Shown here one piece after another: positions 53,646 through 64,000 of a DNA stretch of 64,000 bases. The stretch spans positions 3,286,001 to 3,350,000 of the forward strand of contig NZ_LT629771.1 of assembly GCF_900105175.1 (NCBI RefSeq), given 5' to 3'. Both the position numbers and the translations under genes were made by a program. Under the pieces are notes generated by a model that ran no database searches, had not been told where the DNA came from, and was given only the letters and a program-made list of their open reading frames with translations. The stretch is from Jiangella sp. DSM 45060. Lineage in GTDB: Bacteria; Actinomycetota; Actinomycetes; Jiangellales; Jiangellaceae. The stretch's first letter is position 1; each line of letters starts with the position of its first letter.

Positions 53646-54055
53646 GCGGCTCTGGCGCGCAGGCTCCGCGCCAGGGCGGGGATCATCACCGCCGCGGCGA
53701 GGAGGTGCAGCCCGGCGAGGGTGACGGTGGTGGCGGCGTTCGCCCCGAAGAGCAGCGGCGGGACCAGCGAGATCGCCGTCAGCGTCAGGGCCGTCCACAC
53801 GAACCGCTCCGCGGGGCGGGCGCTCCACCGCAGCAGCCCGGCGGCGATGACGATGCCGGCGACGGACAAGACGCCGGTCACCACGGCGAGCCCGGCCAGC
53901 GGGATCGTCTCTCCGCCGGAGACCTCGAAGTCGACGCCGGCGGCCCGGGCCAGCGCACCGGCGAGGGTGGTGGCCGCCACCGCCGCGACCGCGGCGAGCA
54001 GGCCGGTGCCGGCGAGCCCGCGGAACCGGTGCGCGTCGAGGGCCTGGGCGCTCAT
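53642..54055 (-). CDS. Small four-span membrane protein (DUF6069-like)
   Basis: A 137-residue protein with four hydrophobic helices (GLAGTGLLAAVAAVAATTLAG to LAGLHLLAAAVMIPALA) resembling actinobacterial membrane proteins of unknown function. The ATG 54055 overlaps the stop of the ECF sigma gene, so the two are co-translated. Such proteins are often linked with ECF factors but no function is known. Confidence 0.7.
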   Translation of the reverse strand: MSAQALDAHRFRGLAGTGLLAAVAAVAATTLAGALARAAGVDFEVSGGETIPLAGLAVVTGVLSVAGIVIAAGLLRWSARPAERFVWTALTLTAISLVPPLLFGANAATTVTLAGLHLLAAAVMIPALARSLRARAA

Positions 54056-55053
54056 GCCGTCCCTCCGTCCGCGGCCAGCCGCTCCGGCAGCCCGAGCCGC
54101 GGGAACCGGTCGGCGTGGAACGTGACGATCTCGGTGATCGCCCCGCCGGTGACGCGCAGGACGTCGATCGTCAACGGCAGGTACGCGCCCTCGTCCTCGC
54201 TCCACTCGTAGAAGGCGACGGCGGGCTGGCGGTTCACGGCGGTGGGGACGGCGCGCAGGCCCTCCATGCGCTCGAAGCCGTCCTCGACCCAGCTGGTCAC
54301 CACGGCGTCGCGGCCGATGTGCAGGCCCGGCGTGGGCGGCATCGAGCAGCGGACGTCGTCGCGCAGCAGGGCGGCGAGCGCGTCGACGTCCGTGGCGACG
54401 CTGGCGTCGGTGTAGCGGCGCACCAGCTCGCGCGTCGCGGCGTCCTCCTCGTCGCCGGTCCAGTCCTGCCGCTCGGCGGGCAGGTGCTCGCGCATGCCGG
54501 CGCGGGCCCGCTGCAGCGCGCTGTTCACGGAGTTGACGGAGTCGCCGAGCAGCTCCGCGACGTCCTTCGCCGGCCAGCCGAGCACGTCGCGCAGGATCAG
54601 CACGGCGCGTGGGCGCGGCGCGAGATGCTGGACCGCGACCAGGTACGCCAGCTCGATCGTCTCCCGCGCGACGGCGACGGCCTCGGGCTCGTCCGCGTCG
54701 CCCGCGGGCAGCTCGTCGAGCAGCCGGTCCGGGTAGGGCTGCAGCCACAGCACCTCGCCGCCGGTCGCGGGCTCCGGGCGGCGCTTGGCGAGCAGGTCGA
54801 GGCAGGCGTTGGTGGCGATGCGGTACAGCCAGGCCCGCAACGTCGACCGCCCCTCGAACGTCTCGCGCCGCCGCCAGGCCCGGAGGAACGTCTCCTGCAC
54901 GGTGTCCTCGGCGTCCTCGAACGAGCCGAGCATCCGGTAGCAGTGCACGTGCAGCTCCCGCCGGTGCCGCCGCGCCAGCCCCGAGAACGCCGGTTCGTCC
55001 GCCTCGTCCAGGCGCTCGGCGCCCAGTTCCCGCAGCCACGCGTCCGCACTCAT
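54052..55053 (-). CDS. ECF sigma factor with C-terminal SnoaL-like domain
   Basis: A 333-residue sigma factor. Region 2 (HVHCYRMLGSFEDAEDTVQE) and region 4 (PRPRAVLILRDVLGWPAKDV) are complete. The tail (about 195-333, RRYTDASVATDVDALAALLR onward) is a SnoaL/NTF2-like fold that in such sigma factors acts as a built-in regulator instead of an anti-sigma factor. ATG 55053 has GGAAGG upstream. Confidence 0.9.
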   Translation of the reverse strand: MSADAWLRELGAERLDEADEPAFSGLARRHRRELHVHCYRMLGSFEDAEDTVQETFLRAWRRRETFEGRSTLRAWLYRIATNACLDLLAKRRPEPATGGEVLWLQPYPDRLLDELPAGDADEPEAVAVARETIELAYLVAVQHLAPRPRAVLILRDVLGWPAKDVAELLGDSVNSVNSALQRARAGMREHLPAERQDWTGDEEDAATRELVRRYTDASVATDVDALAALLRDDVRCSMPPTPGLHIGRDAVVTSWVEDGFERMEGLRAVPTAVNRQPAVAFYEWSEDEGAYLPLTIDVLRVTGGAITEIVTFHADRFPRLGLPERLAADGGTA

Positions 55054-55126: not shown

Positions 55127-55741
55127 CTAGTCGGCGTCCTCACCGGCCAGCGGTGCGCCGCGCCGTTCGAGGTCGTCCAGGAGGGCCAGGCCCTTGCGCG
55201 CCCAGTCGATCTCCATCTGGGCCTTCGCCACCTCGCCCTCGAAGGCGAACTTGCGGAACGCGACGATCGCCTCGTGCTCGGCCTCGGGCCGCCGGCTGAG
55301 CCGCTCGCGCAGCAGCGAGACGCGGCGGGCGTCGAGGTCGTCGAGCATGTGCTGCCAGCCCTGCAGCGCCCGCGCGTAGTGGCCGATGTGCTCGTGCAGC
55401 TGGCGCCGCGCGGCGTCGTAGCCGGCCTGCTCGAAATGCGCGGCCTTGAGGCGGTAGGGGTCGCGCTCGGACTGGTACGGGATGAGCTCGCCGGACCACC
55501 GCCGCAGCTCGGCCCGGCCGGCGTCGTTGATCGAGTAGACCCGCTTCTGGGCGCGGTCGCCGCGCGGCACGACGTCGGCGTCGATGAGGCCGTCGCGCTC
55601 CATGCGCCGCAGCTCGGGGTAGATCTGGCTGTGCGGCGCGCTCCACACGTAGGCGATGCTGCCGTCGAAGTACTTGATCAGCTCGTACCCGGTCATGGGC
55701 TGGGCGGTGAGGGTGGCGAGCAGCGCGTGGCGCAGCGACAT
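55127..55741 (-). CDS. PadR-family transcriptional regulator
   Basis: A 204-residue regulator. The winged helix (LRHALLATLTAQPMTGYELI, SHSQIYPELRRMERDGLIDA-like segment, then KRVYSINDAGRAEL) is of PadR form, followed by the longer C-terminal helices of the VanR-AphA-type subgroup. A short dyad CATC-N8-GATG at 55754-55769 just upstream may be its operator. The gene borders the molybdenum hydroxylase operon, whose control it could share. Confidence 0.88.
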   Translation of the reverse strand: MSLRHALLATLTAQPMTGYELIKYFDGSIAYVWSAPHSQIYPELRRMERDGLIDADVVPRGDRAQKRVYSINDAGRAELRRWSGELIPYQSERDPYRLKAAHFEQAGYDAARRQLHEHIGHYARALQGWQHMLDDLDARRVSLLRERLSRRPEAEHEAIVAFRKFAFEGEVAKAQMEIDWARKGLALLDDLERRGAPLAGEDAD

Positions 55742-55753
55742 GGGGTGTCCCTA

Positions 55754-55769
55754 CATCAGCAAACCGATG
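55754..55769. promoter_or_regulatory. Weak dyad upstream of the PadR gene
   Basis: CATC-AGCAAACC-GATG lies 12 bases before the PadR start codon. The arms are only 4 bases, so this is weak evidence for an auto-regulatory site. Confidence 0.25.
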
Positions 55770-55794
55770 AATATCCGCAACAGTACCGAACGAC

Positions 55795-58056
55795 TCATGT
55801 CACCTCACGCAACAGCGCCCGGACCCGGTCGGCGGTGAGCGGCAGCGTGGTCACCCGGGCGCCGGGCACGCCCAGCGCGTCGGCGACGGCGTTCGCCACC
55901 GCGGCCGGCGTCCCGACCATGCCGGACTCCCCCGCGCCCTTGGCGCCCAGCGGGTTGCCCGGCGCGGGGTGCTCGAGGACGATCACCTCGATGTCGGGCA
56001 GCTCACCGGCCGACGGGAGGCGGTAGTCGCCGAGCGTCGTGGCCATCGGCTGGGCCCGCTCGTCGTAGCTGAGCTCCTCCAGCAGCGCCGCGCCGATGCC
56101 CTGGCTCGCCGCGCCCGCCAGCTGGCCGCGGACCAGCGCCGGGTTCACCGCGCGGCCGACGTCGTGGGCGACGACGTGCCGGACGACGCGCACCCGCCCG
56201 GTGTCGCGCTCGACCTCCACCACGCTGAGCGCGGCGCCGAACGAGAACGTCGGGTGCGGCTTGTCGAACCGAGCACGGCCCTCCCCCACGTCCTGCAGCG
56301 GGCACGACACGCCACCGGGACCGTGGGCGCGCCCGTCGCGGAACTCCACGTCGTCCGGCTCAGCCTCCAGCAGCTTCGCGGCCTTGGCGCGCAGGTCGCG
56401 GGCGGCCAGCAGCACCGCGTTGCCGGCCACGGGGGTGGACCGGCTGGCGAACGCCCCGAACCCCATGGGGACGGCGTCGGTGTCATGGTGGTCGACCCGC
56501 AGGCGGTCCATCGGCACGCCGAGCTCGTCGCCCGCGACCTGCGCCAGCACCGTCTCGACGCCCTGCCCCAGCGAGGCGACCCCGACGTGGACGACGAAGC
56601 TCCCGTCCGCGGCCGGGACGATCCGCGCGTCCTCGAACGGGCCCATCGCGCCCACCTCGACGTAAGCGGCGACGCCGACACCGGCGCTGACGCCGTCGCC
56701 GGACCTGGCCGCCGCCTCGCGGCGGAGCTCGTCGTAGCCGGCCCGCGCGAGCAGGGTCTCGAAGGACGAGCGGAAGGCGCCGCTCAGGTAGCTGATCGGC
56801 GGGACCGGCGCCGAGCCGGCGCCGAGCGACCAGGTGAACGGCAGGTCGTCGTCGCGGATGAGGTTGCGCCGGCGCAGCTCGGCCGGGTCGAGTCCCAGCC
56901 GGCCGGCCAGCACGTCCAGCAGCCGCTCGCGGACGAACGCGGCCTCCGTCATGCCCGGCCCGCGGTAGGTGCCGACCGGCGTGCGGTTGGTGAGCACCCC
57001 CGTGGTCTCCAGCTCGAACGCCTCCCACCGGTACGGGCCCGGGAGGTGCAGCGCCGGCAGCAGCTCCGGCAGCGTGCCCTGCGACCTCGCGTACGCGCCC
57101 TGGTCGCACCGGGCGCGGTCGCGGAAGGCGAGCAGCCGGCCGTCGGCCGTCGCGGCGATCTCGAGCTCGTGCTCCTGCTCGCGGGCGTGGTTGGTGGCCA
57201 CGAAGTGCTCGGTGCGGTCCTCGATCCACTTGACCGGACGGCCCAGCCGCAGCGCCAGGAACGCCACGAGATAGTCCTCCGGGTAGGCCTCGCCGCGCAC
57301 GCCGAAGCCGCCGCCGACGTTCACCTCCACGATCCTGATGGCGGCCGGATCCAGCGCCAGCATCTCGGCCAGCGCCGCGCGCACGGCGTGCTTCACCTTC
57401 GCGCCGCCCCAGAGCGTGAGCCGGCCGGTGGCGGGGTCGGCCTCGGCGATGGCGCCGCGCGTCTCCATCGGGACGGCGGTGTGCCGGTGCATCCGCAGCC
57501 GCTCGCGGACGACGACGTCGGCCCGGGCGAACGCCGCGTCGACGTCGCCGTGGCGCAGCGGGTAGCTGCTGACGACGTTGTCGCCGAGCTCGGGGTGGAG
57601 CACCGGCGCACCCGGGTCGGCCGCGGTGGCGAGGTCCGCGACGACGTCGAGCTCGTCGAGGTCGACGTCGACCAGCTCGGCGGCGTCCTCGGCCAGGTAG
57701 GGGTCGGTGGCGACGACGACGGCGATCGGCTCGCCCACGTACCGGACGACGCCCCGGGCCAGCGGCGGCTGGAGGACCCGTCTGGCCCGGGGCGTGTCGG
57801 CGAGCGGCAGCCGGATGGGGATGCGCACGTCGGGGAGGTCGTCGGCGGTGATGACCGCCAGCACGCCGGGCATGGCCGCGGCGTCGGCGGTGTCGATGCC
57901 GGCGATCCGTGCGTGTGCCACCTGGCTGCGCACGATCCTGGCGTGCACCTCGCCGTCACGATGCACGTCGGCGACGTAGCGCGCCGCACCGGTGAGCAGC
58001 GGGAGGTCGGCGAGCCGTTCGACGTCGGCGCCGACGAGTCCGCGGACTCGGGTCAT
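55795..58056 (-). CDS. Molybdenum hydroxylase large subunit (xanthine dehydrogenase/CoxL family)
   Basis: A 753-residue molybdenum-cofactor subunit. Binding blocks include NVGGGFGVRGEAYPEDYL, GTYRGPGMTEAAF, and the catalytic Glu710 in KGAGESGMVGTP. The active loop TYRGPG differs from the AYRCSFR loop of true CO dehydrogenase, so this enzyme hydroxylates an organic substrate, probably an N-heteroaromatic or aldehyde. ATG 58056 overlaps the FAD-subunit stop. Confidence 0.9.
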   Translation of the reverse strand: MTRVRGLVGADVERLADLPLLTGAARYVADVHRDGEVHARIVRSQVAHARIAGIDTADAAAMPGVLAVITADDLPDVRIPIRLPLADTPRARRVLQPPLARGVVRYVGEPIAVVVATDPYLAEDAAELVDVDLDELDVVADLATAADPGAPVLHPELGDNVVSSYPLRHGDVDAAFARADVVVRERLRMHRHTAVPMETRGAIAEADPATGRLTLWGGAKVKHAVRAALAEMLALDPAAIRIVEVNVGGGFGVRGEAYPEDYLVAFLALRLGRPVKWIEDRTEHFVATNHAREQEHELEIAATADGRLLAFRDRARCDQGAYARSQGTLPELLPALHLPGPYRWEAFELETTGVLTNRTPVGTYRGPGMTEAAFVRERLLDVLAGRLGLDPAELRRRNLIRDDDLPFTWSLGAGSAPVPPISYLSGAFRSSFETLLARAGYDELRREAAARSGDGVSAGVGVAAYVEVGAMGPFEDARIVPAADGSFVVHVGVASLGQGVETVLAQVAGDELGVPMDRLRVDHHDTDAVPMGFGAFASRSTPVAGNAVLLAARDLRAKAAKLLEAEPDDVEFRDGRAHGPGGVSCPLQDVGEGRARFDKPHPTFSFGAALSVVEVERDTGRVRVVRHVVAHDVGRAVNPALVRGQLAGAASQGIGAALLEELSYDERAQPMATTLGDYRLPSAGELPDIEVIVLEHPAPGNPLGAKGAGESGMVGTPAAVANAVADALGVPGARVTTLPLTADRVRALLREVT

Positions 58057-58919
58057 GGGTGGTCCTCCCTCAGTCGCCGCAGGGTCCGCCCGACCAGGAC
58101 GGCGACCAGCTCGCGCCGGAACGTCGCGCTCGCGTGCGGGCCGTCGGCGGGGTCGCAGCCCGCGGCCGCCGCACCGGCGGCGGCGTCGATGACCTGCTCG
58201 GTCAGCGCCGAGCCCAGCAGCGCGTCCTCGGCCTCGCTCGCACGCAGCGGGCGTGCTGCGACACAGCCCAGGACGACCCGTGCGTGCCGGACCCGGCCGC
58301 CGTCGTCCAGCGCGACCGCCACGGCGGCGGTGACGAACGCGAAGTCGCCGGCCCGCGGGCTGAACTCGGCGAACGCGGTGCGCAGGCCCGCCGGCGGCGC
58401 CGGGAACCGGCCGTCGACGACGATCTCGGCCGGCTCCAGCACGGTCATGAACGGGCCGGCGAAGAACTCCGCGGCCGGGATGACGCGGTCGCCGCCGCTG
58501 GAGCGCACCGTGAACGACGCGTCCAGGGCGGTGGCGGCCACCGGCAGCTCGGCCGCGGGGTCGGCGTGGGCCAGGCTGCCGCCCAGCGTGCCGCGGATCC
58601 GGATCGGATGGTGCCCGATGAGCCCGGCGGCCTCGCGCAGGACCTGCCACGGACCGGTCAGGACGGCCGAGCGCTCCAGCTCGTGGTGGCGGACCAGCGC
58701 GCCGATGACGAGCCCGGCGCCGTCGGCGCGCATGGTGTCCAGACCGGGCACGCGGCCGATGTCGACCAGGTGAGTCGGCCGGGCGAGGCGGTAGGCGAGC
58801 AGCGGGAGCAGGCTCTGCCCGCCGGCGAGCACCTTGGCGTCCTCGCCGGCGTCGTCCAGCAGCGTCAGCGCGTGCTCGAGCGACTCGGCGCGGGCGTAGG
58901 CGAACGGCGGCGGCTTCAC
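58053..58919 (-). CDS. Molybdenum hydroxylase FAD-binding (medium) subunit
   Basis: A 288-residue flavin subunit with the two FAD motifs AGGQSLLPLL and TLGGSLAHADPAAELP, and a closing CO-dehydrogenase-type C-terminal domain. It passes electrons between the molybdenum and iron-sulfur subunits. GTG 58919 overlaps the small-subunit stop (GTGA). Confidence 0.92.
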   Translation of the reverse strand: MKPPPFAYARAESLEHALTLLDDAGEDAKVLAGGQSLLPLLAYRLARPTHLVDIGRVPGLDTMRADGAGLVIGALVRHHELERSAVLTGPWQVLREAAGLIGHHPIRIRGTLGGSLAHADPAAELPVAATALDASFTVRSSGGDRVIPAAEFFAGPFMTVLEPAEIVVDGRFPAPPAGLRTAFAEFSPRAGDFAFVTAAVAVALDDGGRVRHARVVLGCVAARPLRASEAEDALLGSALTEQVIDAAAGAAAAGCDPADGPHASATFRRELVAVLVGRTLRRLREDHP

Positions 58920-59413
58920 GCCACGTCCCCGGCCAGCTCGCGCTGCGCGGCGAGGACCGCCCGCACGATCGGCCCGCCGCCGGTGCAGCGGCACAGGTTG
59001 GACGTCAGGACCTCACGGATCCGCTCGGGCGACGCCTGCGGCTCCGCGCGCAACAGGCCCAGCGCGAGCATGAGGAAGCCGGGCGTGCAGAACCCGCACT
59101 GCAGGCCGCCGTTCTGGTGGAACGCGCGCTGCAGGGCGTGCAGCTCGGGACCGTCGGCCAGCCCTTCGACGGTCTCGACGCCGGCGCCCTCGGCCTGCAC
59201 GGCCAGCGTCAGGCAGGACCGGACCGGCCGGCCGTCCAGCAGCACCGTGCAGGCGCCGCAGACACCGTGCTCGCAGCCCAGGTGCGTGCCGGTGAGGCCG
59301 TCGTCGCGCAGCGCGTCGGCGAGCGTGCGCCTGGCCGGCACCCGCATGGTCGCCGGCCGGCCGTTGACGACGACGTCGACGGCAGCGGTGTCGTCCTCCC
59401 CGATCCAGGTCAT
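58916..59413 (-). CDS. Molybdenum hydroxylase [2Fe-2S] small subunit
   Basis: A 165-residue subunit with the plant-type [2Fe-2S] cluster (CEHGVCGACTVLLDG plus a later RSC) and the second cluster (CGFCTPG and CRCTG). It is the first gene of the hydroxylase operon, with the dyad at 59430-59447 just upstream of ATG 59413. Confidence 0.93.
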   Translation of the reverse strand: MTWIGEDDTAAVDVVVNGRPATMRVPARRTLADALRDDGLTGTHLGCEHGVCGACTVLLDGRPVRSCLTLAVQAEGAGVETVEGLADGPELHALQRAFHQNGGLQCGFCTPGFLMLALGLLRAEPQASPERIREVLTSNLCRCTGGGPIVRAVLAAQRELAGDVA

Positions 59414-59429
59414 CGCCGCTCCTCTCGAT

Positions 59430-59447
59430 TATGTATCATAATACGTA
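59430..59447. promoter_or_regulatory. Operator copy 1 of the hydroxylase regulon (TACGTAT-N4-ATACATA)
   Basis: On the minus strand this reads TACGTAT-TATG-ATACATA, an almost perfect dyad 16 bases before the small-subunit start. It matches the site at 60514-60531 in both 7-base arms. Confidence 0.65.
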
Positions 59448-59474
59448 TCGTCATAACCAGCCGTCAACGTCCGC

Positions 59475-60461
59475 TCACGCGACCTGGTCGAAGGCCGCGG
59501 CGATCCGCTCGGTGCGCCACCCGGCCCCCAGCGCGAGCGACAGCAGGATCCGTGCCTTGAACGGGTCGAGCGCGCCGGCGGTGAGCAGCCCGCGGGACAG
59601 CAGGTCGCGCTCGGACCCCGGGAACCCGTACGTCGTGCGGAACCCCTCGCCGGCGCCGCAGCGCGAGGCCAGCACCACCGGGATGCGCCGGGCCAGCCGG
59701 GTGACGTCCTCGACCAGCCGGCCGGGCACGTGACCGGCGCCGAACCCGGCCAGGACGACGCCGCCGAACCCCAGGTCGGGCAGTTCCCGCAGGATCCGCC
59801 CGTCGTCGCCGAGCGCGATGGTCACGAGCGCGACCGGCGGCGGCTGGGTGCCCAGCGGCGCACCGATCACCACCCGGGCGGCCGGTCGCAGCGGTATCCG
59901 CACCCGGTCCTCCGCGACCCAGCCGATGGGTCCGGCGCTCGGCGACGCGAACGCCGACGGCCGCGACGTGTGCAGCTTGCGGACGAACCGGGCGGCGTGG
60001 ATCTCGTCGTTCATGGCGACGACGACGCCCAGCCCGCACGCCTCGTCACCGGCCGCCACCCGGACGGCGGCGAGCAGGTTGGCCGGACCGTCCGCGCCGG
60101 GCTGACCGGGGCCGCGCAGGGCGCCGGTGACGACGACCGGCCGGTCGGTGTCGCTGAGCAGGTCGAGCGCGAACGCCGTCTCCTCGATGGTGTCGGTGCC
60201 CTGGGTCACGACGACGCCGTCGCCGCCGGCCGCGACCAGCTCGCGCACCCGGCCGGCGAGCGCGATCAGGTCGGTGAGCCGCAGCTGCGCGCCGGGCAGC
60301 CGCCGGAACTCCTCGGCGCCGATGGTCGCCACCTCGGCCAGTTCCGGCACCCCCGCCACGAGGTCCGCCGCGTCCAGGGCGGGCTCGACGCCGCGCCCGT
60401 CCGTCCTGGTCGTCATCGCGATCGTGCCGCCGAGCGAGAGCACGTGCACCGTCCGAGTCAT
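59475..60461 (-). CDS. L-asparaginase-family amidohydrolase
   Basis: A 328-residue type I/II asparaginase-like enzyme. The catalytic Thr13 is in SLGGTIAM, and the second Thr-Asp pair is Thr89-Asp90 in TQGTDTIEE. No signal peptide is seen (cytosolic). ATG 60461 has GGAGG upstream; an upstream in-frame ATG lacks a good site. Within this cluster it may deamidate a pathway intermediate rather than asparagine itself. Confidence 0.88.
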   Translation of the reverse strand: MTRTVHVLSLGGTIAMTTRTDGRGVEPALDAADLVAGVPELAEVATIGAEEFRRLPGAQLRLTDLIALAGRVRELVAAGGDGVVVTQGTDTIEETAFALDLLSDTDRPVVVTGALRGPGQPGADGPANLLAAVRVAAGDEACGLGVVVAMNDEIHAARFVRKLHTSRPSAFASPSAGPIGWVAEDRVRIPLRPAARVVIGAPLGTQPPPVALVTIALGDDGRILRELPDLGFGGVVLAGFGAGHVPGRLVEDVTRLARRIPVVLASRCGAGEGFRTTYGFPGSERDLLSRGLLTAGALDPFKARILLSLALGAGWRTERIAAAFDQVA

Positions 60462-60513
60462 GCGCCCCTCCTCCACTTCGCCTTGACGATAGGAATCAGC
60501 TGACGTTAGCGTT

Positions 60514-60531
60514 TACGTATCTTAATACATA
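60514..60531. promoter_or_regulatory. Operator copy 2 of the hydroxylase regulon (TACGTAT-N4-ATACATA)
   Basis: TACGTAT-CTTA-ATACATA lies in the 92-base divergent region between the asparaginase-like and MBL-fold genes, 22 bases before the GTG of the latter. Six of seven arm positions are symmetric, and both arms equal those of copy 1. Confidence 0.65.
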
Positions 60532-60553
60532 CTTCCCGAGGAGGGACCGGACC

Positions 60554-61546
60554 GTGGTCTGCTGGCCGTTGCCCGTCATCCACGAGACCAGCGAGCGTCA
60601 GGCGGGCTTCGTCCCGCCGAATCTCAGCCCGCGCGGACTCGAACTGATCCCCCAGGAGCTCGCCGACGGCGTGTACGCGCTCATGGCGAACCGCGTGCCC
60701 AAGGACAACAACGGGCTCGTCGTCGGCCGCGACGCCGCGCTGGTCATCGACGCCGGCATCACCCCCGGTGTCGGCCGCTACCTGCAGGACGTCGTCGCGA
60801 AGCTCACCGACAAGCCGGTCCGGTACCTGGTCAACACCACGTACCACGGCGACCACAGCTTCGGTAACGCGTCCTTCGGCGACGACGTCACGATCGTGTC
60901 GTCGCGGCTGAACAAGGCCGCCATGACCACCATGGGGCTGGAGGAGGAGAAGCAGCTGCGCCTCAGCAGCCTCTACGGCGACCCACACCTCGACGAGGTC
61001 GTGAGCTGGCGCGCACCCGACCTCGTGTTCGACCGGTTCTGCGAGATCGACCTCGGCGGGCGCGTCGTCCACCTGTGGCACTTCGGGCCCGGGAACGGCT
61101 CGGGCGACACCATCGTCCACGTCCCCGACGCCGATGTCGCCTGGGTCGGGAACTTCCTGCGCCACGCCGGCATCCCGCCCATGCTGCTGGCCGGCGACCC
61201 GGTCGGCTACGGGCGGTCCATCCGGTCGCTGAAGGCGACGCTGCGCGCCGACACGCTCGTCCCCGGCCACGGCCCGCTGACCGAGGCCGCCGACGGCATC
61301 AGCTGGCACCTCAGCTACCTGGACCGCCTCGCCACCGAGGTCTCGCGGCGCCACGACGCCGGCGAGACCGTCGACACGATGCTGGCCGAGTACACACTGG
61401 ACGACCCGCTGCAGCTGTCCGAGGTCGTGCCGTCGGCCGGCCCGGAGGAGGCGGACCGCTTCGACGCGCTGGTCCGGTCGAACCACGAGCTCAACGTCCT
61501 GCTGGCGTACCGGTGGCTGACGTCGGCCGCCGCGTGGGCCGCCTGA
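60554..61546 (+). CDS. MBL-fold metallo-hydrolase with altered first zinc ligand
   Basis: A 330-residue metallo-beta-lactamase-fold protein. The zinc motif reads T96-Y-H-G-D-H101 (NTTYHGDHSFGN), where the usual HxHxDH has His first; the other ligands remain: DTIVHVP supplies the bridging Asp and PGHG a His. A C-terminal helical region follows. GTG 60554 has GAGGAGG about 10 bases upstream. It is the first of four visible genes in one direction and probably hydrolyses a pathway intermediate; one zinc site may be weak. Confidence 0.85.
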   Translation: MVCWPLPVIHETSERQAGFVPPNLSPRGLELIPQELADGVYALMANRVPKDNNGLVVGRDAALVIDAGITPGVGRYLQDVVAKLTDKPVRYLVNTTYHGDHSFGNASFGDDVTIVSSRLNKAAMTTMGLEEEKQLRLSSLYGDPHLDEVVSWRAPDLVFDRFCEIDLGGRVVHLWHFGPGNGSGDTIVHVPDADVAWVGNFLRHAGIPPMLLAGDPVGYGRSIRSLKATLRADTLVPGHGPLTEAADGISWHLSYLDRLATEVSRRHDAGETVDTMLAEYTLDDPLQLSEVVPSAGPEEADRFDALVRSNHELNVLLAYRWLTSAAAWAA

Positions 61547-61574: not shown

Positions 61575-62234
61575 ATGGAGATCGAGAACACGTTCACCGT
61601 CCCGGTTCCGGTGGACGAGGCCTGGAGAGTGCTGCTCGACGTGGAGCGGGTGGCGCCGTGCATGCCGGGCGCCACGCTCGACGCGGTCGACGGCGACGAG
61701 TTCTCCGGCCGGGTCAAGGCGAAGGTCGGTCCGGTGAGCCTGTCGTACAAGGGGCGGGCCCGCATCGAGTCCGCCGACGAGGAGTCGCACACCGCCGTCA
61801 TCGCCGCCCGCGGCAAGGACGCGCACGGCAACGGCACGGCCGCCGCGACCGTCACCATGCACCTGACCGACGACGCGGGCGCGGCGCGCGTCGACCTGCT
61901 CACCGAGCTCGACATCACCGGGCGGCCGGCCCAGCTCGGGCGCGGCGTGATGACCGACGTGGCGAACGCCATCATCGGGCAGTTCGCCACGGCCCTGGCG
62001 CGGCAGCTGGCGGCGGCCCCGCCACCGTCCGAGCCGCCCGGCGAACACCCCGGCGGGTGGCAGCCGCCGGGTGAGCCGGCGCCCGCGGGCGCCGCCACCC
62101 GGGCACCCGCCCCGGCACTCGACCCCACCGTCCCCGAGGCCATCGACGTGCTCGGGATCGCCGGCCGCTCGGTGCTGCGCCGTATGGGCGCGGCCCTGGC
62201 CCGTGTCGTGCGCCGGCTGTTCCGGCGCTCCTGA
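61575..62234 (+). CDS. CoxG-like SRPBCC protein
   Basis: A 219-residue protein with a CoxG-type domain (MEIENTFTVPVPVDEAWRVL; ELDITGRPAQLGRGVMTDVA). In CO dehydrogenase clusters CoxG recruits or anchors the enzyme to the membrane. After about residue 140 there is a Pro/Gly/Ala-rich linker and a basic amphipathic tail (RRMGAALARVVRRLFRRS), suited to membrane contact. It lies with the hydroxylase genes but in another operon of the same regulon. Confidence 0.88.
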   Translation: MEIENTFTVPVPVDEAWRVLLDVERVAPCMPGATLDAVDGDEFSGRVKAKVGPVSLSYKGRARIESADEESHTAVIAARGKDAHGNGTAAATVTMHLTDDAGAARVDLLTELDITGRPAQLGRGVMTDVANAIIGQFATALARQLAAAPPPSEPPGEHPGGWQPPGEPAPAGAATRAPAPALDPTVPEAIDVLGIAGRSVLRRMGAALARVVRRLFRRS

Positions 62235-62266: not shown

Positions 62267-63361
62267 GTGGCGAGCGGCACCACGATCACCGACGTGACCA
62301 CCACCTTCCTCTCCATCCCGCTGGAGCGGCCGTTGGTCACGGCGGCGTTCCCGATCCCGGCCATCGACACCGCACTCGTGCAGGTGCGCACCGCCGACGG
62401 CCATGAGGGCGTCGCCTGGAGCTTCGCCTTCGGGCGCGGGCGCGTCGCCAGCCTGGTCCGGCTCATCGACGATCTCGGCGAGCTGGCCGTCGGCGCCGAC
62501 GCGGTGGCCACCGAGGCCCTGTGGGCGCGGCTGTCGAAGGCGGTGGAGTTCGCCGGCCGGCGTGGCCTCGCCGCGGCGGCGATCTCCACCATCGACACCG
62601 CCTGCTGGGACATCACCGGCCAGGCCGCGGGCCTCCCCGTACACCGGCTGCTCGGCGGGTTCCGCGACCGGGTCGAGACGTACGCGAGCCAGGGCCTGTG
62701 GCTGGACCGCGGCCGCGACGAGCTCGCCGCCGAGGCGCAGGCTCTGGCCGGTCAGGGCTTCCGGGCGGTCAAGATGCGCGCCGGGCTGCCGGACCCGGCC
62801 GAGGACGTCGCGCGCGTGCGGGCGGTGCGCGAGGCCATCGGGCCCGACGTCGCGCTGATGGTCGACGCCAACCAGGCGTGGGACCTCAAGCAGACCCTCC
62901 GCATGGCCCGCGACCTGGCCGAGTTCGACCTCTTCTGGCTGGAGGAGCCGATGCCGCACGGCCACATCGACGACTACGCGGCCGCGGCGCCGGCCATCGA
63001 GATGCCGCTGTGCACCGGTGAGTCGAACTACTTCGCCGACGAGCTGCTCCTCCTCGCCCGGCGACGAGCGGCGGACTACGTCATGCCCGACCTCATGCGC
63101 ATGGGCGGGGTGACGGAGTGGATGAAGGCGGCCCGGATGTGCGAGGTGTTCGGGCTGCGCGTCACGCCGCACCTGTTCATGGAGCACTCCGCGCACCTGG
63201 CCGGCGCGGCGCCCAACGTGGTGTGGCAGGAGTACCAGCCCTGGTGGCAGCCGATCCTGGAGACGCCCGTGCAGGTGGTCGACGGCTGCATCGCGCTGGG
63301 CGACGAGCCCGGCTTCGGCCTGCGGCTGTCCGCGTCCGCCGTCGCCGAGTACCGGCTCTGA
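62267..63361 (+). CDS. Enolase-superfamily enzyme of the mandelate racemase subgroup
   Basis: A 364-residue racemase or dehydratase. Its catalytic residues follow mandelate racemase with a constant offset of five: Lys169 (VKMR), metal ligands Asp200 (VDANQ), Glu226 (EEP) and Glu252 (GES), and the Asp275-His302 dyad (PDL; TPHLFMEHSAH). The second Lys of the KxK pair is Arg171, as in several sugar-acid dehydratases. It acts by removing a proton next to a carboxylate; the substrate is unknown. GTG 62267 with AAGGAG upstream. Confidence 0.88.
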   Translation: MASGTTITDVTTTFLSIPLERPLVTAAFPIPAIDTALVQVRTADGHEGVAWSFAFGRGRVASLVRLIDDLGELAVGADAVATEALWARLSKAVEFAGRRGLAAAAISTIDTACWDITGQAAGLPVHRLLGGFRDRVETYASQGLWLDRGRDELAAEAQALAGQGFRAVKMRAGLPDPAEDVARVRAVREAIGPDVALMVDANQAWDLKQTLRMARDLAEFDLFWLEEPMPHGHIDDYAAAAPAIEMPLCTGESNYFADELLLLARRRAADYVMPDLMRMGGVTEWMKAARMCEVFGLRVTPHLFMEHSAHLAGAAPNVVWQEYQPWWQPILETPVQVVDGCIALGDEPGFGLRLSASAVAEYRL

Positions 63362-63374
63362 AGGGGACGCGTCC

Positions 63375-64000
63375 GTGCCCACCCTCGACCTGCTGATCTC
63401 CGGCGGCACCGTCGTCACCTCCTCCGGTCGCCGCCGCGCCGACGTCGCCGTCCGCGACGGCCGCGTCGTCGCCGTCGGCCGGCTGGACGCCGACGCCGCG
63501 AGAGTGGTCGACGCCGGCGGCCTGCTCGTGCTGCCCGGCGGCGTCGACAGCCACGTGCACCTCATGGACCCCGGCGACATCGAGCGCGAGGACTTCCCCA
63601 CCGGCACCCGCGCCGCCGCGGCGGCCGGCACCACGACGATCGTCGAGCACTCCCACGGCGCGCCGGTGCGTACCGTGGCCGACCTGGACACCAAGGTCTC
63701 GTACTTGACCGGCCGGTCCAACGTCGACTACGCGCTGGCCGCGCACGCGTGGCCGGGCGCGGCCGGCAGCGTCGCCGGACTGTGGCGGGCCGGTGTCGCC
63801 TTCTTCAAGGTGTTCACCTGCACCACTCACGGCATCCCCGGCCACGGCGCCGCGGCGCTGCGCGGGCACCTGCGCGCGACCGCCGACGCCGGCGCCGTGA
63901 GCCTCGTCCACTGCGAGGACGAGTCGCTCACCGAGGACGCGGAGGCGCTGCTGCGTGCCGACGGGCGCGACGACGGCGGCCTGCTGCCCGAGTGGCGCGA
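63375..64000 (+). CDS. Cyclic amidohydrolase (dihydropyrimidinase/hydantoinase/allantoinase family), cut by window edge
   Basis: The first 208 residues are visible. The metal motif is VDSHVHLMDP (His60, His62), the carbamylated Lys fits Lys145 in FFKVFTC, and a further ligand is the His of LVHCED. The family opens cyclic amide rings such as dihydropyrimidines and hydantoins. GTG 63375, 13 bases after the enolase-superfamily gene. The position after a ring hydroxylase regulon suggests it opens a hydroxylated heterocycle. Confidence 0.87.
   Translation, partial: MPTLDLLISGGTVVTSSGRRRADVAVRDGRVVAVGRLDADAARVVDAGGLLVLPGGVDSHVHLMDPGDIEREDFPTGTRAAAAAGTTTIVEHSHGAPVRTVADLDTKVSYLTGRSNVDYALAAHAWPGAAGSVAGLWRAGVAFFKVFTCTTHGIPGHGAAALRGHLRATADAGAVSLVHCEDESLTEDAEALLRADGRDDGGLLPEWR

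Follow-up and report, generated by a model that had tools for sequence, protein, structure and literature searches.

Two 18-bp dyads as predicted operators of a PadR-family regulator in a molybdenum hydroxylase gene cluster of Jiangella sp. DSM 45060

Introduction

A 64,000-nucleotide stretch of the Jiangella sp. DSM 45060 genome (the window; coordinates below are window positions unless the whole genome is named) carries a cluster of genes read in two directions, in which the same 18-bp dyad lies in front of a hydroxylase operon and again in front of a divergent operon. This arrangement raises the question of whether the two dyads are operators of one regulator and, if so, which regulator it is and how it would affect transcription. 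The genes of the cluster are as follows.

55127..55741, minus strand, PadR-family regulator gene (padR; protein P0001, PF03551), last gene of the hydroxylase operon
55795..58056, minus strand, molybdopterin-binding large subunit of a xanthine-dehydrogenase-type hydroxylase
58053..58919, minus strand, FAD subunit of the hydroxylase
58916..59413, minus strand, [2Fe-2S] small subunit of the hydroxylase
59475..60461, minus strand, asparaginase-like gene, divergent from the MBL gene
60554..61546, plus strand, metallo-beta-lactamase-fold hydrolase (MBL)
61575..62234, plus strand, CoxG-family protein
62267..63361, plus strand, mandelate-racemase-superfamily enolase
63375..64000, plus strand, allantoinase/hydantoinase/dihydropyrimidinase-like amidohydrolase; the gene extends beyond the window to 64721 (window numbering)

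The ATG of the asparaginase-like gene is placed here at 60461, which corrects the initial annotation.

Results

The enzymes of the cluster

Among solved protein chains, the large subunit was nearest to 6-hydroxypseudooxynicotine dehydrogenase and then to CO dehydrogenase and quinoline 2-oxidoreductase, the enolase was nearest to mandelate-racemase-family and talarate/galactarate dehydratase entries, and the amidohydrolase was nearest to L-hydantoinase and allantoinase. None of the NCBIfam matches listed for the cluster enzymes (in the case of the amidohydrolase, the top 25 of 58) lay above its curated cut-off. We infer that the pathway substrate may be a nitrogen heterocycle or a cyclic imide.

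The DNA between the large-subunit stop codon and padR (55742-55798) was almost unchanged in three Jiangella genomes and contains, when read by eye, an open frame of 15 codons that begins with an ATG overlapping the large-subunit stop codon. Both in-frame substitutions in the Jiangella muralis genome (G013) change the amino acid, so that a DNA or RNA element is possible rather than a peptide; the stretch may be, for example, a padR promoter. On its other side, padR is adjoined by a gene (54052-55053) for a sigma-70-family protein that has a SnoaL-like domain at its C-terminus.

Sequence and uniqueness of the dyads

The dyads and the promoters near them were located as listed here.

59430..59447, minus strand, predicted operator 1, TACGTATTATGATACATA, arms TACGTAT and ATACATA with the spacer TATG; 16 nt upstream of the small-subunit ATG
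59438..59467, minus strand, predicted sigma-70-like promoter of the hydroxylase operon, TTGACG-18-TATTAT, from a consensus scan
59442..59459, plus strand, possible weaker second dyad with 3 mismatches, overlapping operator 1 with an offset of 12 bp
60483..60512, plus strand, possible promoter of the MBL operon, TTGACG-18-TAGCGT, read by eye
60514..60531, plus strand, predicted operator 2, TACGTATCTTAATACATA, arms TACGTAT and ATACATA with the spacer CTTA; between the MBL and asparaginase-like genes

Read on the coding strand of the operon downstream of it, each dyad is TACGTAT-N4-ATACATA, and the repeat is imperfect, its arms being TACGTAT and TATGTAT with a single C/T difference. The initial annotation had described the two copies as having identical arms and equal 4-base spacers, which was correct for the arms and for the length of the spacer, but not for the spacer letters (TATG versus CTTA). 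It had also noticed no further copy in the window, and a scan of the full genome (7,485,957 bases) bore this out, the exact pattern being present in two places only, both within the window; the many unrelated genome matches that it had named as counter-evidence did not appear. When up to three mismatches were allowed, five matches were obtained in the window, versus 0.03 expected from dinucleotide shuffles; they fall at three places, two of which overlap.

With the symmetrised pattern TAYGTAT-N4-ATACRTA and up to two mismatches, the whole genome yielded one extra place, TCCGTATCACCATACGGA at 5,746,312. This site (5,746,312-5,746,329) resembles the dyads, is a perfect palindrome apart from its spacer, and is flanked by two divergent genes, one TetR-like and one oxidoreductase-like (names judged from sequence). 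It is probably a TetR operator and looks unrelated to the dyads of the hydroxylase cluster. A TetR operator was considered for the cluster dyads as well and was rejected; the site at 5,746,312, which is the sole weak extra match in the genome and stands beside a TetR-like gene, differs from them in the outer arms.

Position of the dyads relative to predicted promoters

The consensus scan found one promoter in the region, versus a mean of 0.1 in shuffles, and operator 1 overlaps the predicted −10 box of this promoter. The boxes read by eye for the MBL operon were absent from the output of the scan for the region; according to a similar reading by eye, these boxes and their spacing are unchanged in two other Jiangella genomes and in Actinomadura geliboluensis. 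Operator 2 starts one base downstream of the −10 box read in this way. Because the dyads overlap or abut predicted −10 boxes, repression is the likely outcome of protein binding to them.

Conservation in homologous clusters

When the MBL protein was used to scan the genome contig collection, which covers 84,980 species, 40 loci were returned, and the hydroxylase cluster was present at five of them. The J. muralis locus (L029) is the same record as G013, L029 and L025 are one record and were given a single entry, and the five loci together with the window and genome G005 make up seven distinct clusters. The dyad was kept with at most one mismatch in six of these seven. At the 35 MBL-homologue loci without the cluster, a few of which are on short contigs, no match with up to two mismatches was found.

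The arrangement of the dyads varied among the clusters. In A. geliboluensis the MBL-side dyad has one mismatch and the hydroxylase-side dyad has two. In Streptomyces aculeolatus the MBL-side dyad (one mismatch) is accompanied by a second core 12 bp further, and no dyad was detected upstream of the hydroxylase genes. The eight genes of parvosata run in one direction as a single operon headed by a single dyad (one mismatch), and the parvosata PadR, 73% identical, is encoded on the same contig roughly 80-90 kb from the cluster. The cluster of Pseudonocardia acaciae showed no 18-base match within three mismatches; it has a degenerate core, CTAT-N4-ATAG, in the intergenic region between the small-subunit and MBL genes, and its PadR is 68% identical. 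At another locus (L098, genome G663), a 78% identical PadR gene lies beside fragments of large-subunit and amidohydrolase genes on a 16-kb contig where no dyad was found, and this locus would be either a decaying cluster or an assembly fault.

In the three Jiangella genomes, the hydroxylase-side dyad has identical arms at all 14 positions and differs at two of the four spacer bases, and the MBL-side dyad is conserved at 13 of 14 arm and three of four spacer positions; the numbers in this comparison are small, and much of the flanking sequence is conserved too. A shifted match like the weaker dyad was also observed in the two other Jiangella genomes (two and three mismatches), and comparable 12-bp steps recurred both in three clusters (S. 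aculeolatus, P. acaciae and parvosata) and in front of the PadR genes at three loci (L076, L082 and L084). The 12-bp step is partly automatic, because neighbouring dyads share one arm; we take the steps as suggestive of two dimers side by side.

Distribution in the family and class of the host

A PadR protein like P0001 (E up to 1e-30) was encoded in three of 22 genomes of the host's family, with 100, 97 and 92% identity, and the MBL gene (E up to 1e-40) was found in those same three of the 22. All three carry paired dyads about 1.1 kb apart, five of which match the symmetrised pattern exactly and one with a single mismatch. Among 393 sampled genomes of the class, the large subunit (E up to 1e-220, two candidates scored per genome) was found in these three Jiangella genomes only. 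Since PadR, the genes and the dyads are present or absent as one package in the family, their co-occurrence alone cannot single out PadR as the regulator.

Four dyad matches with a single mismatch were detected in three family genomes of one other genus (G018, G019 and G020), one of them in front of a TetR-like ORF. We treat such matches as background, because a backwards control pattern gives them in 6 of the 22 family genomes. The four were rejected as members of the regulon, tblastn with two PadR proteins being negative in the 3-kb loci.

Association of the motif with PadR genes

P0001 matched PF03551 with an E value of 7.7e-17 and 61.5 bits, versus a curated cut-off of 27, and thus has a PadR winged-helix domain. 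Its nearest solved chains were 6lg2 and 5z7b (E about 4e-47), which we take to be VanR of Corynebacterium glutamicum (the entries themselves say PadR family or predicted regulators), and the alignment to solved PadR chains spans residues 1-191.

The promoters of PadR relatives were examined for the core [GC]TAT-N4-ATA[GC]. The searches returned 33 PadR loci with 32 distinct upstream stretches: L077 and L019 have identical upstream stretches and form a single entry, L086 was retained despite one in-frame stop codon, and L096 and L097 were left out of the count as repeats of L069, of L073 and of part of L070. Within 120 bp upstream of the start, the core was present in 15 of the 24 relatives with less than 60% identity, although these 15 are not independent cases, because they belong to about five groups of the tree and one clade of eight supplies seven of them. 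By comparison, 1000 dinucleotide shuffles of the 24 promoters gave a mean of 0.18 and a largest count of 3. The core was absent within 120 bp from the other nine distant promoters, one of which (L082) has it at −201. It was also absent from the own promoters of all eight relatives with more than 60% identity, namely the PadRs of the clusters and of G663, and from the 11 other PadR loci (3.2 kb each) of the host's own genome.

Exact 18-base matches were found upstream of two relatives, L075 and L076, which have 53-54% identity. A scan of 341 genomes of the family to which A. geliboluensis belongs gave four exact matches to the symmetrised pattern; in three cases a PadR gene follows immediately, two of these genes encoding relatives of P0001 and one a distant PadR. 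A backwards control matched in 10 genomes versus 4 for the symmetrised pattern, and it is the location of the sites rather than their number that is informative, because the control matches are in excess. The fourth site (L121/L122, G709) is also exact, falls within a longer palindrome, and precedes a small gene that is followed by an ABC-transporter-ATPase-like gene (name judged from sequence).

The initial annotation had postulated one regulator for both operons, perhaps PadR. A single regulator is well supported by the restriction of the exact dyad to two places and by the retention of a dyad with at most one mismatch in six of seven clusters; a lack of conservation before orthologous clusters, which the annotation had named as a refuting outcome, did not occur. 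For PadR itself, the promoters of its distant relatives provide independent support. No site was found directly upstream of padR in the window; padR is the last gene of an operon that carries the dyad. The computation directly shows the dyads, how unique and how conserved they are, and that the motif is associated with this PadR subfamily, and we conclude that the regulator of both dyads is very probably the PadR protein encoded at 55127-55741.

Alternative explanations

If PadR binds the dyads, it could do so as an activator or as a dual activator and repressor, like the activator AphA of Vibrio cholerae. P0001 does match AphA (E 2.9e-19), whose PDB name is gene activator, but 6lg2 and 5z7b are far closer to P0001 than AphA is, and the dyads are on or just downstream of −10 boxes, where a bound protein would be expected to block polymerase. 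For VanR, a PadR-like repressor, the operator is likewise described as lying downstream of the −10 region (PMC8358305), and we consider activation quite unlikely. A different regulator encoded elsewhere, for example one of the TetR family, might instead bind the dyads, with PadR accompanying the cluster for another reason. Such a scheme would fit the distance of the parvosata PadR from its cluster, the lack of a site directly upstream of the Jiangella padR, the likeness that TetR operators can have to the dyads (as at 5,746,312), and the presence of a TetR-like ORF near the P. acaciae cluster (L032 12415-13038; name judged from sequence). However, PadR relatives outside the cluster have the motif in their own promoters, and no other regulator was common to the flanks of L030-L033 when the filtered ORFs were read by eye; control by another protein thus seems very unlikely.

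It could also be argued that the dyads do not act as operators and are an AT-rich feature of the promoters that arose by chance or was inherited, given that the −10 regions where both are located are rich in A and T anyway, and that much of the flanks is also conserved among the three Jiangella genomes. Yet far fewer matches than one are expected per window by chance, the arms are conserved while spacer bases vary, the dyads are kept in the clusters of several actinobacterial genera, and the motif recurs upstream of distant PadR genes. We regard this explanation as extremely improbable.

Proposed mechanism

Repression by PadR is the reading that we favor. In our judgment it is highly likely that both dyads are operators of the PadR protein, which would repress both units until an inducer releases it and would also control its own synthesis. 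A PadR dimer on operator 1 would cover the −10 region of the hydroxylase operon, in which the small-, FAD- and large-subunit genes and padR are predicted to be co-transcribed. PadR bound at operator 2 would lie over the probable start of the operon that runs from the MBL gene through the CoxG and enolase genes to the amidohydrolase gene, and it may obstruct the promoter of the divergent asparaginase-like gene as well. Without inducer all units would be repressed, and the pathway substrate or an intermediate would release PadR. With padR at the end of an operon that its own product is predicted to repress, the circuit would include autoregulation.

A broader interpretation takes in the enzymes, which comprise the molybdenum hydroxylase and the hydantoinase-like, asparaginase-like, MBL and enolase-superfamily proteins. 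We offer it tentatively, as a possibility that we would sooner doubt than adopt: the cluster might be a sporadic catabolic regulon, not described before, for a nitrogen heterocycle or cyclic imide, in which dimers of this PadR subfamily occupy overlapping dyads at a 12-bp pitch and the inducer is a pathway intermediate.

Discussion

The analysis provides a testable operator code, [GC]TAT-N4-ATA[GC], for one branch of actinobacterial PadR regulators, and a set of eight enzyme or accessory genes that is probably under the control of one PadR protein. The search for the substrate becomes narrower once the genes that are switched as a group are known, and the pair of operator and repressor could serve as a sensor for that substrate. 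Our literature search gave no paper that connects PadR with a molybdenum hydroxylase or hydantoinase operon, and nothing related on PadR in Jiangella. A switch made of PadR and its operator is a known kind of bacterial regulation, of which the Jiangella hydroxylase cluster is, as predicted here, a new example.

VanR of C. glutamicum is described as a PadR-like repressor of vanABK, the genes for vanillate use, with an operator downstream of the −10 region, from which vanillate releases the repressor in vitro (PMC8358305). It resembles the Jiangella protein in its predicted role, since in both cases a PadR-like protein would repress catabolic genes of an actinobacterium; in Jiangella, however, the enzymes and presumably the inducer are different, padR stands last in its operon, and the two divergent operons have one predicted operator each. 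The core of the VanR operator, CTAA-N4-TTAG, has the same 4-base spacer as the Jiangella dyads but differs from their GTAT-N4-ATAC.

The motif ATGT-N8-ACAT, as published for LmrR, LadR and PadR of lactic acid bacteria and Listeria (PMC4517056), comes from the same family and has the same half-site spacing, the Jiangella dyads reading AYGT-N8-ACRT. Each dyad agrees with it exactly in spacing and in seven of eight letters (ATGT..ACGT or ACGT..ACAT), one half being ACGT rather than ATGT or ACAT, and in the L075 promoter of a PadR relative both the ATGT and ACAT halves are exact. The known targets of LmrR, LadR and PadR are efflux pumps or phenolic acid decarboxylase, in contrast to the molybdenum hydroxylase of Jiangella. 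The sites described for cdPadR1 of Clostridioides difficile are inverted repeats in its own promoter (PMC5050560), and the predicted Jiangella system resembles it as a PadR protein with sites of the inverted-repeat kind.
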